Shown here piece after piece: positions 29,886 through 36,001 of a DNA stretch of 36,001 bases; within the stretch, counting starts at the first letter, position 1; every line of letters begins with the position of its first letter. The DNA comes from Candidatus Nitrosopumilus sp. Its GTDB lineage: Archaea > Thermoproteota > Nitrososphaeria > Nitrososphaerales > Nitrosopumilaceae. The stretch is from assembly GCA_029863275.1 (NCBI GenBank), contig JAOTVS010000013.1, forward strand, positions 1 to 36,001, given 5' to 3'. The position numbers were made by a program, and so were the translations under genes. The notes under the pieces were generated by a model. That model saw only the letters and a program-made list of their open reading frames with translations. It did no database searches and was not told the origin of the DNA.

Positions 29886-30028
29886 AAAAATAAAAAATCC
29901 CCATTTTAGAACAATATGGAAATAAAAATCTTCGAACAGATATTATGAAATTCTAATAAAGGAAATAAATAAATAATTTTTTAGATTTATCATAAAATAC
30001 CCGTCTTGGATTTGCAGTCGTTTATAGC

Positions 30029-30070
30029 ATGTTTGGACTCCTAACCGAAGGCGTGTATCCCTACATGTAG
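30029..30070 (+). other. short protein-like frame, probable gene remnant
   Basis: A frame open from about 29999 reads LGFAVVYSMFGLLTEGVYPYM before TAG at 30068-30070, with its only ATG at 30029. It looks like the C-terminal end of a membrane protein. No start of usable length exists, so it may be a remnant. Confidence 0.15.
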
Positions 30071-30186
30071 AATTTCTATAAAACAATATCATCAAGAATT
30101 CTAAACAGTCGTTTAATCATCAACAATATTTTAAACGAATTTCAATTTATTAACAAAATTAAAATTCTTAGCCATAAATTAACATC

Positions 30187-30396
30187 ATGGTGAAATGTCC
30201 TACATGTAAATTATCAATGGATTCCCATTCAACTTTTGAGTTAATGGAATGCTGTATGAAGCAAGTAGGTGAGGATGTAAATATCGAGGATACTGAATAT
30301 TCATGCCCAAATTGCAAACATCAAATCAAAAAGCACTCAAATCAGGAACTAGCTGAGTGTACCATAGCATTTTTGAAATCAGGAATTCAAAAATAA
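30187..30396 (+). CDS. double CCHC zinc-finger protein
   Basis: This 69-residue protein contains two copies of C-X2-C-X6-H-X7-C: C4, C7, H14, C22 and C40, C43, H50, C58, exactly 36 residues apart. Each copy continues with a helix holding the last cysteine (FELMECC and QELAECT). An internal duplication is therefore clear. The pattern recalls a zinc knuckle, so nucleic-acid binding is possible. ATG 30187 is the first codon after an AT-rich promoter region. Confidence 0.75.
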   Translation: MVKCPTCKLSMDSHSTFELMECCMKQVGEDVNIEDTEYSCPNCKHQIKKHSNQELAECTIAFLKSGIQK

Positions 30397-30505
30397 TTCA
30401 AAAAATTTTTAACTTTTTGAATAAATTAAGTTCAAAAATATTAGATAAAATCTGTAACTCTATCTGGACATGATTTTATATTGATCAATGAAATGTCTTA
30501 GGGTA

Positions 30506-30712
30506 ATGTCTGAAGAAAATACTGAAAAGCCAAAAAATAAAATTGTTTTTGTAACACTAAAAATGCCAGATGGTAAAGAACATGAGATACCACTTCCAGC
30601 TAAAGTTTTTAGTTCTGGTAGAGAGGGGTTTTATGCTCAAATTCCAGCCCTAGTATATGATAACGAAGTATATGGGGGACAAATTCAAGTTTGGAAAAAA
30701 ACACCCAAATAA
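30506..30712 (+). CDS. small beta-rich protein, unknown
   Basis: I start this protein at ATG 30506 (68 residues), because the box TTTTATATTG at about 30474-30483 would put the transcript start near 30503; an in-frame ATG at 30488 would lie too close to the box. It has two strands, KIVFVTLKMPDGKEHEIPLP and FYAQIPALVYDNEVYGGQIQ, and a basic end. It is likely a small beta-barrel. No family is named. Confidence 0.6.
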   Translation: MSEENTEKPKNKIVFVTLKMPDGKEHEIPLPAKVFSSGREGFYAQIPALVYDNEVYGGQIQVWKKTPK

Positions 30713-31099
30713 AAAATTTATTCATATACATTACGTCAAAACGTTATCCTCTCAACAAAAATTCATTTTCAAAAAAATAATTGTTGTAAATTAAATAATA
30801 AGATCTAATTATCGGAAGGGTAAGAAAACAATACTCTTGTCTGTTAGGGAAGAAATTGGCGCAGGACTATCAAATAAAAATTTTAGATTTATCATGAAAG
30901 TGTTAATAGTGGATAACAAACAAAATATTTCCAATCCACTCTCAACATTTCTTAAAGTCAAGGGCTTTGAAAATGTAGTAACAAATGACGAAAAAAAGGA
31001 TTTGATTAGAGTAAAGGTGAGAAATTTGAAATCACTAGTTGAGGAAATTTATGAATTTAGGAAATTTTTGAATTTAAAAAAAATATCCCCTCAAAAATT

Positions 31100-31219
31100 T
31101 TATTTTTTTGAGGTTCTTTTTACACTGCTTTTCTTTGCTGCAGTCTTCTTTGCTGCAGTCTTCTTTGCTGCAGTCTTCTTTGCAGGTTTTTTAGATCCTG
31201 TAATTTTTTTTGCTGGCAT
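31100..31219 (-). CDS. lysine/alanine-rich histone-H1-like micro-protein
   Basis: ATG 31219 opens a 39-residue frame: PAKKITGSKKPA, then three KKTAA repeats, then KKSSVKRTSKK. Lysine/alanine repeats of this kind occur in H1-like DNA-compacting proteins and as tails of archaeal and bacterial DNA-binding proteins. It is wholly antisense to the hydrophobic end of the plus-strand frame at 30837-31256, which is explained by the repeat. Its role as a chromatin protein is inferred from composition. Confidence 0.6.
   Translation of the reverse strand: MPAKKITGSKKPAKKTAAKKTAAKKTAAKKSSVKRTSKK
31131..31184 (-). repeat. three 15-bp tandem repeats inside the H1-like gene
   Basis: The plus-strand unit TTCTTTGCTGCAGTC occurs three times exactly, followed by a partial copy. 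Each unit encodes one KKTAA block on the minus strand. Perfect repeats can gain or lose units by slippage without changing frame. Confidence 0.85.
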
Positions 31220-31323
31220 AATGAGCAAATTTAATTTCTTAGATTTCTATAGGTAAAATAAAAAAAATAAACAAAATGAGTATTTTTTAAAACATAAATT
31301 TTAAAAAATATTTTTAGAAATTT

Positions 31324-31929
31324 TTAGGAAAACCTGTTTTCAAAAACAATTTCCTCAATGGGTAACTGCCCACCTCTTTGACCGGGAGGCTCTAATGCCT
31401 TTCCAACGACAATCATCATTACGATCAAATGGTCATTTGGGAGATGTATTATTTTGGCTAGCTCATCATATTCAAATCCACTCATCGGACAAGAGTCAAG
31501 ACCCATTTGTTTTGCAGCAAGCATTATAGTCTGAGCAGCAAAACCACAAGATCTCATTGCCTCATCTCTTTTGTTTTGTGAGTTATCAGAATATTTTCTT
31601 TTGAGGGCATTTGCCACATATTCTTGTTTTTCTTTGGGGTAATTTTTCCAATATCTTTTTGGATTATCCATCCATGCGCTAGTATTTCCACATAAAATTA
31701 TGACCAAAGAACCATCAGAAGGTTGGGCTTGATTACGAGCGGCTTTACTGATTTCTTCTTTTATTTTTTGTTCAGAGATTGTAATGAATCTCCAATTTTG
31801 TTGATTGTAACTACTAGGAGACAAAATTGCCAATTCCATTAAAAATTTGATTTCATCAGTAGTCATTTTGTGATTTGGATCAAATTTTTTAATTGCTCGT
31901 CTATTGATTATGGCATCAAAAGTATTCAT
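31324..31929 (-). CDS. nitroreductase-family FMN-dependent oxidoreductase
   Basis: This 201-residue protein has the family layout: N-terminal INRRAIKKFDP (9-18), then LSPSSYNQQNWRF (36-48), which holds FMN, and the C-terminal GKALEPPGQRGG segment. It should reduce nitro-compounds, quinones or flavin using NAD(P)H, as a dimer. ATG 31929 gives the usual N-terminal helix. The physiological substrate is unknown. Confidence 0.92.
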   Translation of the reverse strand: MNTFDAIINRRAIKKFDPNHKMTTDEIKFLMELAILSPSSYNQQNWRFITISEQKIKEEISKAARNQAQPSDGSLVIILCGNTSAWMDNPKRYWKNYPKEKQEYVANALKRKYSDNSQNKRDEAMRSCGFAAQTIMLAAKQMGLDSCPMSGFEYDELAKIIHLPNDHLIVMMIVVGKALEPPGQRGGQLPIEEIVFENRFS

Positions 31930-32077
31930 TAGTTATCCAATTTGATCAGTTTATTTTCGTAATTTATTTGATTAAAGTACACATCTAACATGGAATTTAG
32001 AATTCATTCATATTTATCCAAAGCAAATCAATAAAACTAATCATTTCTACGAAAACAGATAAGATCAAGAAAATAAA

Positions 32078-32428
32078 ATGACTGAATTTAACCATAAACC
32101 CTACACAACAATAATTGTTAGAGATATCATCAAAATGAGTCTAGATGATTTACTCAATATGATGTCAACACTAGAGGCAGGTAATGGATATTGGGCCGAC
32201 GGAGTACTTTTTGCAAGTTTTTCTATGACTGATTCAGAAGAACTAGCTAAAAAGGAGATTCAGGGTGAAACATATCTGGATAAAATTATTTTTGCAAAAT
32301 ATGAAGAATATACAAAAACAGCAAAACTATCTACCAATCTTGAGATTAATATTTTAAATGTACAAAAAAGCCAATTGTATAGAGACCTAGTCGCATGGTT
32401 GAAAAAACAGTCCATATGGAATGAATAG
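32078..32428 (+). CDS. hypothetical protein
   Basis: This 116-residue soluble protein starts at ATG 32078. It has two strands (YTTIIVRDIIKMS, GYWADGVLFASFSMTD) and helices ending in YRDLVAWLKKQSIWNE. It has no cysteine and no membrane segment. It precedes another small gene by 67 bases and may be co-transcribed. No family is recognised. Confidence 0.6.
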   Translation: MTEFNHKPYTTIIVRDIIKMSLDDLLNMMSTLEAGNGYWADGVLFASFSMTDSEELAKKEIQGETYLDKIIFAKYEEYTKTAKLSTNLEINILNVQKSQLYRDLVAWLKKQSIWNE

Positions 32429-32495
32429 ATTAAATTCGGACAAACTGCATATGAACTCTTAATTTCATATAGGAGTTGATATAAAGGAATAACAG

Positions 32496-32804
32496 ATGGA
32501 AATAACTGAAGAAGATAGAAATGAATTAAAAAATCTATTGAGTATTGCAACCAGTCAGATTCCAAGATATTTCAATTTACTAAATTCAACTAAAGAAAAT
32601 TGGCAAATTAAAAATATCAATGAATGTGTTTTTGGAATGGTATTTGAAAAATACATTCACGATTCTGGACAATATATGTCAAACAAAAGCATAGATGAAA
32701 ACCAACCAAATTCAATTGAAAACACTATGGAGGCATATGATGCCGGAATTGACGTATTTGGGGATAACGTGGCTGAAATTAAGAGAAAAATCCAGGAAAA
32801 CTAG
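32496..32804 (+). CDS. hypothetical helical protein
   Basis: This 102-residue protein from ATG 32496 is mostly helical. It begins MEITEEDRNELKNLLSIATS, carries ECVFGMVFEKYIHDSG in the middle and ends with VAEIKRKIQEN. It lies 67 bases before the PAC2-family gene, in the same direction. No family is recognised. Confidence 0.6.
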   Translation: MEITEEDRNELKNLLSIATSQIPRYFNLLNSTKENWQIKNINECVFGMVFEKYIHDSGQYMSNKSIDENQPNSIENTMEAYDAGIDVFGDNVAEIKRKIQEN

Positions 32805-32871
32805 CACTTTCCAGCCCTAATATTCGCAAATAGACAGGCTACAGATTTTAATTAAGTAATTATAAAATTTA

Positions 32872-33552
32872 ATGATGGAGTATACCCAAACAAAAGAGCC
32901 AGACGTTGAAAAACCCATAGTTATTGCAGCTATGCAAGATATGGGGAATGTTGGGAGTATTGTAATTAATTTTATCAATGAGAGTTTGCATACCACTCAA
33001 TTTAGAATAGCAAAAAGCCAATTTCCAACATATGTTGTAGATAAAGGAGGTTACATTGATGTTCCAATTGAGAATTGGGAGTACAGATTTACAGATAGGT
33101 TAATTTTGTTTGGAGGTGGGACAGGTCAACCACAGAATAATCAAGAACTTAATTCATTATGCCAAGACGTAATTGATATTTCAAAAAAGTATTCTGCAAA
33201 ATTCATCTATACTTTGGGCGGGTTTCATACCAATAGAAATTTGAATAAAAATTCCAGGACCCTAGTCACTACAACCTCAAAAGAGTTAACAAAACAAATG
33301 TACGATATGGGAATGGAGACTACCCAAAAATCAATTATAACAGGCTTTAATGGATTGATTTTAGGATTTGCAAAACAAAATGGCATTCAGGGAATTGGAA
33401 TGTATGGAGAACTAAATGATCCAAAAATTCCACAGTATAGAGCAGCAATTAGCATAATTAAGACATTAGAAAAACTAACCTACAGGAAACTCGGAGATAC
33501 AAGCAGGTTAGAAATGATGGCTCAAGAAGTTGAAAAAAGTTTCGAGAATTAG
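32872..33552 (+). CDS. PAC2-family protein
   Basis: This 226-residue protein matches the PAC2 family (proteasome-assembly-chaperone-2-like), found widely in archaea. The N-terminal VIAAMQDMGNVGSIVINFI, the YTLGGFHTNR segment and GFNGLILGFA correspond to the phosphorylase-like alpha/beta core. In eukaryotes PAC2 helps to assemble the proteasome ring; in archaea the role is not settled. ATG 32872 is used; ATG 32875 follows at once. Confidence 0.82.
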   Translation: MMEYTQTKEPDVEKPIVIAAMQDMGNVGSIVINFINESLHTTQFRIAKSQFPTYVVDKGGYIDVPIENWEYRFTDRLILFGGGTGQPQNNQELNSLCQDVIDISKKYSAKFIYTLGGFHTNRNLNKNSRTLVTTTSKELTKQMYDMGMETTQKSIITGFNGLILGFAKQNGIQGIGMYGELNDPKIPQYRAAISIIKTLEKLTYRKLGDTSRLEMMAQEVEKSFEN

Positions 33553-33567
33553 TTTTTTAGTTTTTGA

Positions 33568-34572
33568 TTAACGGTATTCATCTCCACAATCTCCAATGCT
33601 CTCAAAAAGATCATTTGATTTTTGGGTAACTAATTGAATCTCAAAAATATCTTCAGAATCTAAATGCAATCCAAACGCCTTTAAATTATCTTCTCTGTGT
33701 TCAGATATCCCCAATCTTGTACCAATGATTACTCCTGCAACTGTAGCTTTTTCTAAAATAAAGGAGGTCGACACATTTGCAATAGTACAAGAGTGTTTTT
33801 TAGAAATTTGATGCAGAATTTGTAATAATTCTTGGAATAATTCCCAACCACCCCAAGCATTAATCATGTTGTAGTATTTCTGAAGACTTGCAGTAGAGAG
33901 ATCAGTCCTAGTAGGTTTTGGAGAATTTAGATATTTTTCTGACAAAAATCCTCCCAGCAAAGTTCCATATGATAACAGGAAAATATTGTGTTTACTACAA
34001 AATGGGATCATTATTTTTTCTGGCCTTTGATCTAAAATTGAAAATTGAACCTGATTAGATACAATATCAAATCCCTGATCTTTAACAATTTGTAATTGTG
34101 TTGTGTTAAAATTGGTCAATCCAATGTGTTTTATTTTTCCATCATCTCTAATGTCGGATAAATTAATCAGTCCATCGATGTAACTCGGGTTATTGTAATC
34201 CCACCAATGGAATTGGATTAAATCAATGGAATCAGTATTCATTCTTTCAAGAGACTTGTCAATGTAATGATTGACAATACTTTTAGTCATCGGGCCTGGA
34301 TTTGGGACAAATTTTGTTAAGGCTTGTGAATTTTTTAATTTATCCTTTCCTTTTAGGTCCTGAAGTTTTTTTCTAAATTTGCCAATAAACAACTCTGCAG
34401 GTCCGTAAATATCTGCTAAATCCCATGTCGTAAATCCTAAATTATGATACTCTATCATTTCACTGATTGCTTTTTCAGGATCAATATACCCGTGAGTTCC
34501 AGAAACCTGCCACATTCCGTTTAATATTCTACAAATGGATAAATTCTCAGCTATCTCTTTTGATTCAATCAT
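33568..34572 (-). CDS. aldo/keto reductase
   Basis: This 334-residue TIM-barrel oxidoreductase has the catalytic tetrad: D51 and Y56 in TWDLADIYG, K87 in LTKF and H122 in FHWWDY. The C-terminal part with IGTRLGISEHREDNLKAF binds NADP(H). It reduces aldehydes or ketones to alcohols. ATG 34572 gives a normal start. It is convergent with the PAC2 gene, 15 bases away. The substrate is unknown. Confidence 0.92.
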   Translation of the reverse strand: MIESKEIAENLSICRILNGMWQVSGTHGYIDPEKAISEMIEYHNLGFTTWDLADIYGPAELFIGKFRKKLQDLKGKDKLKNSQALTKFVPNPGPMTKSIVNHYIDKSLERMNTDSIDLIQFHWWDYNNPSYIDGLINLSDIRDDGKIKHIGLTNFNTTQLQIVKDQGFDIVSNQVQFSILDQRPEKIMIPFCSKHNIFLLSYGTLLGGFLSEKYLNSPKPTRTDLSTASLQKYYNMINAWGGWELFQELLQILHQISKKHSCTIANVSTSFILEKATVAGVIIGTRLGISEHREDNLKAFGLHLDSEDIFEIQLVTQKSNDLFESIGDCGDEYR

Positions 34573-34629
34573 GAATTATGTGGATGTAGGTTGTTAAAAA
34601 ATAATCTTCATTAAATTCCTTAAAAAAGA

Positions 34630-34866
34630 TTATTGTATTGGATAATGAACATCACAAAACAAGACAATCCCAGATGGAAGTGTTTTTGCTGTAATTGAGT
34701 GTCCCTCTTGTAAGCCCTTTCCACAAACATAACATTCTACTATGCAAGTAGAGGTTATGGTATTTTTGGCAGAATCAAAAATTCTATTTTGACTCGATCT
34801 TTGTTTTACCTCCTGCATTGCCATGGATGGTAATAATACCAGATCAGTAATAAAGGTACCGTACAC
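34630..34866 (-). CDS. small Cys/His zinc-binding protein
   Basis: The frame from GTG 34866 encodes 78 residues with C45-X2-C48 and C71-X2-H74 (ECYVCGKG, LFCDVHYP), a treble-clef-like zinc site. ATG 34824 is an alternative start, since TATA-like TTAAAATAGG near 34886 would start transcription around 34860. It has no membrane segment once the shorter start is taken. Function unknown. Confidence 0.6.
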   Translation of the reverse strand: MYGTFITDLVLLPSMAMQEVKQRSSQNRIFDSAKNTITSTCIVECYVCGKGLQEGHSITAKTLPSGIVLFCDVHYPIQ

Positions 34867-35029
34867 TATGGTATTTTACCTATTTTAAGTCAATATGAGA
34901 TTTTATCGCCTAAATTAACCAACTCTTAAATAATTTAATTAGACAAAAAACTAGACTTTATTTTGTATTTTCGTGCCTAAATGAAGTGGGGAGGTTATTC
35001 CCCTTGAAGAAAAACAAAGATGTATTTCT

Positions 35030-35239
35030 CTAGAAGTTGGAATATCTTTTAATTCGCCTTGTTTTCTTTTTTATTTCGTTATTTTTCATATGTTGGTATA
35101 CTGTGAATAGAATTACCAGGCTTGGTATAGTAATCATCCAAATAAAATCATTCCAATATCCATTTTGAAATATCATGACATGGGCTACTCCTTCAACCAG
35201 TAGTCCAAAAATTAAGAGGTTTGTGGATTTTATTTTCAC
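35030..35239 (-). CDS. small membrane protein with two helices
   Basis: This 69-residue protein starts at GTG 35239. It has two hydrophobic segments, NLLIFGLLVEGVAHVMIF and FIWMITIPSLVILFTVY, and a strongly basic end (KKKTRRIKR). The basic tail puts both ends on the cytoplasmic side. The next upstream gene on this strand is the interrupted surface-protein frame. No family is recognised. Confidence 0.55.
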   Translation of the reverse strand: MKIKSTNLLIFGLLVEGVAHVMIFQNGYWNDFIWMITIPSLVILFTVYQHMKNNEIKKKTRRIKRYSNF

Positions 35240-35536
35240 TGTAACAACTTAATAAAATATCCATATAATCTTGTGTTATCTTTTTTTATGACATATTTTG
35301 ATTTAATTATTTTAAATCAAAATATTTTAGACCTAGAAAATAATTTCATATCTTTCTCAAACCCTAAACTTTAACAAGTAAATTCCAGCACCTACAACAC
35401 TAGTTACTGCGGGGATTACCCACATCATACTTCCAAGTCCAACAATTACTAGTGCTGGTAAGTCAAGTTAGATGAGTTCTCCTGCTACTAGTGTTGGTTC
35501 TGGTACATTAATCCAAATTTCTTGATTTAAAAATAC

Positions 35537-35869
35537 TTAGTCGTGACTTGCAAATTCTATTTCGAAAGTCACAATACAGTGTTTTTTGGATGTATCACCT
35601 AAATTTTTTATCAATTCATCAAAGGTTTGTTCGTCAGTTTTATCAGGGGAAAAATCCTCAAATTCAATACTATTTGATGGACATACTACGGACATATCTT
35701 CAATGATAAAATCTTCATTACATGAATATTTTTTTGGAATGGTAGTTTCTTCAATTGCCTCAAGTTGCAAAGAAACTTCATCAGGATTTACAGTACAGTC
35801 AACTGGCACTTGATCTATGTCTTCCACAACACAATCTTCTGATGAAATTGTATTCGGAGCTGGGATCAA
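35537..35869 (-). CDS. longest open piece of the interrupted surface-protein frame
   Basis: Between the first and second in-frame TAA the frame from TTG 35869 encodes 110 acidic residues with cysteines at DCVVED, VDCTVN, YSCNED, VVCPSN and HCIVTF. On its own it has no signal peptide or anchor, which are supplied by the flanking parts of the same frame. It is therefore better seen as the central domain of a larger exported protein. Confidence 0.4.
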   Translation of the reverse strand: MIPAPNTISSEDCVVEDIDQVPVDCTVNPDEVSLQLEAIEETTIPKKYSCNEDFIIEDMSVVCPSNSIEFEDFSPDKTDEQTFDELIKNLGDTSKKHCIVTFEIEFASHD

Positions 35870-35986
35870 AGTGTCATCAATTAAAATATCACCATGACCT
35901 AAATGTCCATTTAATGCACCTTGTTATGAGAGAATAACGATGGTATTAGGATTTGGAGGGACATGACATACAGGTACCTTGACAAA

Positions 35987-35996
35987 CCCCCCCCCC
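35987..35996 (-). repeat. ten-base G tract at the start of the surface-protein frame
   Basis: Ten consecutive C on the plus strand are ten G on the coding strand, beginning within the ATG at 35998 and coding for glycines. In AT-rich DNA such a tract is exceptional. Slippage in it would move downstream codons in and out of frame. It lies five bases from the window end, so an assembly artefact is also possible. Confidence 0.6.
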
Positions 35997-36001
35997 ATCC
36001 A

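Follow-up and report, generated by a model that had tools for sequence, protein, structure and literature searches.

A surface-protein gene with three in-frame TAA codons in Candidatus Nitrosopumilus is very probably a pseudogene

The window analyzed here, a stretch of 36,001 bases, is the complete contig C76 of a draft genome that totals 1.76 Mb and comprises 103 contigs. Close to one end it carries the remnant of a surface-protein gene next to a small Cys-rich open reading frame (ORF) and an aldo/keto reductase gene (Table 1). The aldo/keto reductase is 69-77% identical in same-genus genomes, which places the DNA in the Nitrosopumilaceae, and in several genomes of this family it comes after the small Cys-rich ORF. 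In other Nitrosopumilaceae the trpE gene adjoins this locus directly beside the small ORF, with a gap of 23-75 bases in Nitrosarchaeum and a distance of about 600 bases in one same-genus genome. Here trpE is carried on another contig (C31), its distance to the small ORF is about 1.5 kb, and the remnant gene lies inside the extra stretch. In same-genus genomes the genes that occupy the equivalent position, upstream of the aldo/keto reductase, are unrelated, bar one anchor fragment at a contig end, and the genomes searched yielded no orthologue, either of the same species or of a sister species. A report of this type of locus was not found in the literature.

Table 1. Features at the end of contig C76.
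Feature	Position	Strand	Remark
Aldo/keto reductase, PF00248	33568..34572	-	conserved neighbour
Conserved small Cys-rich ORF (CYVCGKGL...)	34633..34875	-	syntenic neighbour placing the locus
Final in-frame stop, TGA	35359-35357	-	few residues earlier than in most paralogues
Remnant surface-protein reading frame, 214 codons, three internal TAA	35360..36001	-	5' end cut by contig end
C-terminal membrane anchor, VAGELL..DSSALVI..MWMIPAVAGIAGAG.YLVK.R type	35360..35506	-	common to about 20 intact paralogues
Third in-frame TAA, codon 178	35470-35468	-	inside anchor; column mostly Ser in intact paralogues
Second in-frame TAA, codon 155	35539-35537	-	
Middle region, 128 codons stop-free	35540..35923	-	acidic, several Cys
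CHVPP...HLGHGD motif region	35888..35968	-	broken by first TAA; relatives uninterrupted
First in-frame TAA, codon 26	35926-35924	-	
G10 run	35987..35996	-	with the next 11 bases also at the end of C31 (there G11)

The first-pass annotation had described one surface-protein frame interrupted by three TAA codons, and this description is borne out: between 36001 and 35360 there are exactly three internal stops, all of them TAA. The start given for the frame, 35998, has to be abandoned; since the window is the whole contig, the frame runs off its end. Over the same stretch the remaining two minus-strand frames contain 22 and 25 stops, and among 642-mers simulated with identical dinucleotide statistics, three or fewer stops in the best of six frames occurred in only 0.8%. 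Homology flanks the TAA sites, with the CHVPP...HLGHGD motif before and after the first stop and the anchor across the third, confirming that surface-protein parts on either side of the stops lie in one frame. The low number of stops compared to the simulation, together with the homology at both ends, argues that the frame shared by both sides is almost certainly ancestral coding sequence.

In relatives the motif reads CH(I/V)PPGNP..HTI..(A)HLGHGD without a stop, and it is likewise open in other proteins of the same genome and family. At its C-terminal end the frame encodes a hydrophobic anchor (VAGELLSLDSSALVI..MWMIPAVAGIAGAG.YLVKLRANRD type), which was matched by no NCBIfam or Pfam model; an intact paralogue tested against NCBIfam gave no anchor-type match either. 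The middle region has no Pfam match, no close homologue in the 100 relatives and 150 family genomes (weak, partial matches only) and no second copy elsewhere in its own genome. A paralogue of 349 aa on contig C43 contains a signal peptide, a CHIPP...HGD motif and the anchor in identical order. The ancestral gene would thus have combined a signal peptide, the CHVPP...HLGHGD domain, a lineage-specific acidic region and the family anchor, and its product is predicted to have been a Sec-exported, C-terminally anchored surface protein of a large paralogous family. C43 also carries an array of several anchored surface-protein genes with thrombospondin-3-like and SpaA-like contents (C43:18000-34000, L141), the anchor domain of which is outside Pfam and NCBIfam coverage.

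The G-run at the end of the window leads to the missing start of the gene. The end of C31 reads G11-TTTGTCAAGGT and the minus strand of C76 G10-TTTGTCAAGGT, so that the two have a 21-mer in common, and these are the only two G-runs of at least nine in the genome (4170-4180 in L136 for the one on C31). Upstream of the run C31 encodes a signal peptide, (V/M)RKYVLPKFFAILISSISVTGDAFA, with a GTG start; the run sits exactly between signal peptide and mature protein, and the assembly breaks there. The five bases preceding the run in C76 differ from those in C31. Because the 21-mer is common to the only such G-runs of the genome and the synteny of trpE agrees, C31 and C76 most likely hold one gene. 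The two contigs can be ordered through the G-runs and synteny. With neither of the assembled lengths (10 and 11 G, both from contig ends) does the signal peptide come into frame with the CHVPP part, and a frameshift lesion at the G-run near the gene start is therefore probable, but since the length is uncertain at two contig ends this frameshift could be an assembly error. The earlier statement that the frame is interrupted without a frameshift thus applies to the visible 642 bases, which contain no indel, but probably not to the G-run leading to the start on C31.

A long G-run at such a position could also belong to a phase-variable surface gene, in which slippage of the run length acts as an on/off switch and the TAA codons represent later damage or a locally dead allele. 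The location of the genome's only long G-runs at the boundary of signal peptide and mature protein, the assembly break and the different run lengths of the two contigs are in line with this, and phase-variable genes are mostly surface genes, with poly-G runs as a known device (PMC3711429). However, the homologous frame reaches a TAA after about 20 residues at any G length, so that no length yields the full protein. While a switch should give the full protein at some length of the run, here the only frame showing homology runs into a TAA beyond the CHVPP motif. Moreover, in other genomes of the family the G-runs at the loci sampled show no general association with surface genes, and run lengths that differ at contig ends may reflect noise in sequencing or assembly. 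We regard a phase-variable gene as unlikely, and it is improbable that the run is a slipping switch in living members of the population and the assembled allele has died since then; phase variation through this run is conceivable but has no support. In another Nitrosopumilaceae genome (L166) a G14 run divides an epimerase-like gene into two frames, for which phase variation or an assembly error may be responsible.

The state of the anchor was compared with that of its paralogues. A search of the genome yielded 21 other copies (about 20 paralogues), none with a stop inside. At the 24 anchor columns conserved in the intact paralogues the remnant is changed in seven, the third TAA included; intact copies are changed in 0-4 when each is left out in turn, and two truncated or orphan copies in 6 and 11. 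Pairwise dN/dS of the anchor against the paralogues is about 0.2-0.6 over 41 codons, a value that mixes change before and after inactivation and is no proof of neutrality. Contig C35 carries a truncated, anchor-only fragment (L137 649-1069). Over 421 bases it has 95% identity with the 3' end and flanking sequence of an intact surface gene that lies at one end of contig C85 (L138 1372-1791), which indicates a recent partial duplication. Broken copies of this kind are consistent with a repeated surface family undergoing gene birth and death. On C71 an intact anchored gene is followed immediately downstream by another anchor copy, which is partial (L014 1696-1774). A same-genus MAG contig (L047, 1-80) likewise ends within anchor sequence, upstream of the aldo/keto reductase; since that contig, too, ends in an anchor, this suggests that anchor sequences often break short-read assemblies.

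Three nonsense changes with no indel had been considered unusual for ordinary decay, an assessment that does not withstand the calculation. TAA is the commonest stop to arise by point mutation of the codons present (49-59%), and the probability that all three stops are TAA is 0.12-0.20 under simple mutation models. A stop-free run of at least 128 codons has a probability of 0.25 given three random stops in 214 codons, and to this the probable frameshift at the G-run has to be added. The missing indel within the 642 bases is mildly notable and is not evidence of function. With three nonsense changes, the 642 bases would have taken up roughly 50-100 point changes in all, and decay on this scale is not necessarily recent.

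Readthrough or recoding of TAA would give one full-length protein from the same frame. That a single frame spans three stops, all TAA, agrees with it, and in-frame stops under purifying selection, recognized by low dN/dS among orthologues, have been reported in bacteria (PMC7918605). Yet serial readthrough of three stops would give little product, and the internal stops have no counterpart in the about 20 paralogues. TAA terminates 15 of the 21 genes of the window and is therefore the normal stop here, the anchor has lost conserved residues, the start is probably out of frame and no Rfam element is located nearby (none at 30000-36001); readthrough is thus highly improbable. Reassignment of TAA was rejected since it is the usual terminator and the paralogues are without internal stops. 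Both readthrough and recent inactivation had been left open by the first-pass annotation: inactivation is supported, whereas readthrough is unsupported, and "recent" is doubtful with 50-100 implied changes.

The stops could also stem from assembly or sequencing errors or from a mixture of strains, as the gene lies at a contig end beside a homopolymer in an assembly of 103 contigs and the two contigs disagree before the G-run. Three substitutions hundreds of bases apart, together with missense changes at other conserved anchor sites, would however be atypical of short-read error, which makes this origin very unlikely. With its middle open for 128 codons and truncated anchor copies present elsewhere, the stretch might instead consist of separate short genes or of a silent cassette donating sequence to expressed paralogues. 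But the middle part is without an early ATG, a signal peptide or an anchor of its own, and a recipient is missing, as the genome has no other copy of the middle region; we consider this extremely improbable. Separate short genes were rejected on the grounds that the middle ORF lacks an early ATG and a signal peptide.

Taken together, the remnant is with a probability of roughly 0.87 a pseudogene, an ordinary dead copy of a surface-protein gene. In-frame stops that homologues do not have characterize a pseudogene, and three TAA are found here against none in the about 20 paralogous anchors. Given three stop codons and a probably shifted frame at the start, a working protein is most likely no longer made. 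The gene would have occupied the extra segment between trpE and the conserved small gene beside the aldo/keto reductase. Selection may have been lost first, the family being redundant and subject to gene birth and death; point mutations would then have created the three stops, and the G-run would have slipped. The result removes one candidate for stop-codon readthrough, which is of little importance in itself, and provides an example of how a lineage-specific family of anchored surface proteins turns over in the Nitrosopumilaceae. It also illustrates that a gene divided between two contigs can conceal a frameshift. Should the G-run prove variable among members of the population, it would offer a starting point for studying phase variation in ammonia-oxidising archaea.

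The locus can be compared with three known systems. Poly-G phase-variable surface genes, which switch by slipped-strand mispairing, share with it a long G-run near the 5' end, here of different length in the two contigs; in contrast to them, downstream stops block the protein at any G length and there is no evidence of switching. PEFG-CTERM or archaeosortase-type anchored proteins of Nitrosopumilus (for a mention of PEFG-CTERM proteins, PMC6593220) are alike in the signal peptide, the many paralogues and the short hydrophobic C-terminal anchor with basic residues at its end, but the anchor described here has no PEFG motif and no NCBIfam or Pfam match. Pseudogenes of multi-copy prokaryotic surface-protein families show the same in-frame stops and missense changes at conserved sites, and the same truncated sister copies beside intact paralogues in one genome. 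From these the remnant does not differ substantially, apart from the distribution of the gene over two contigs, with a G-run at the break.
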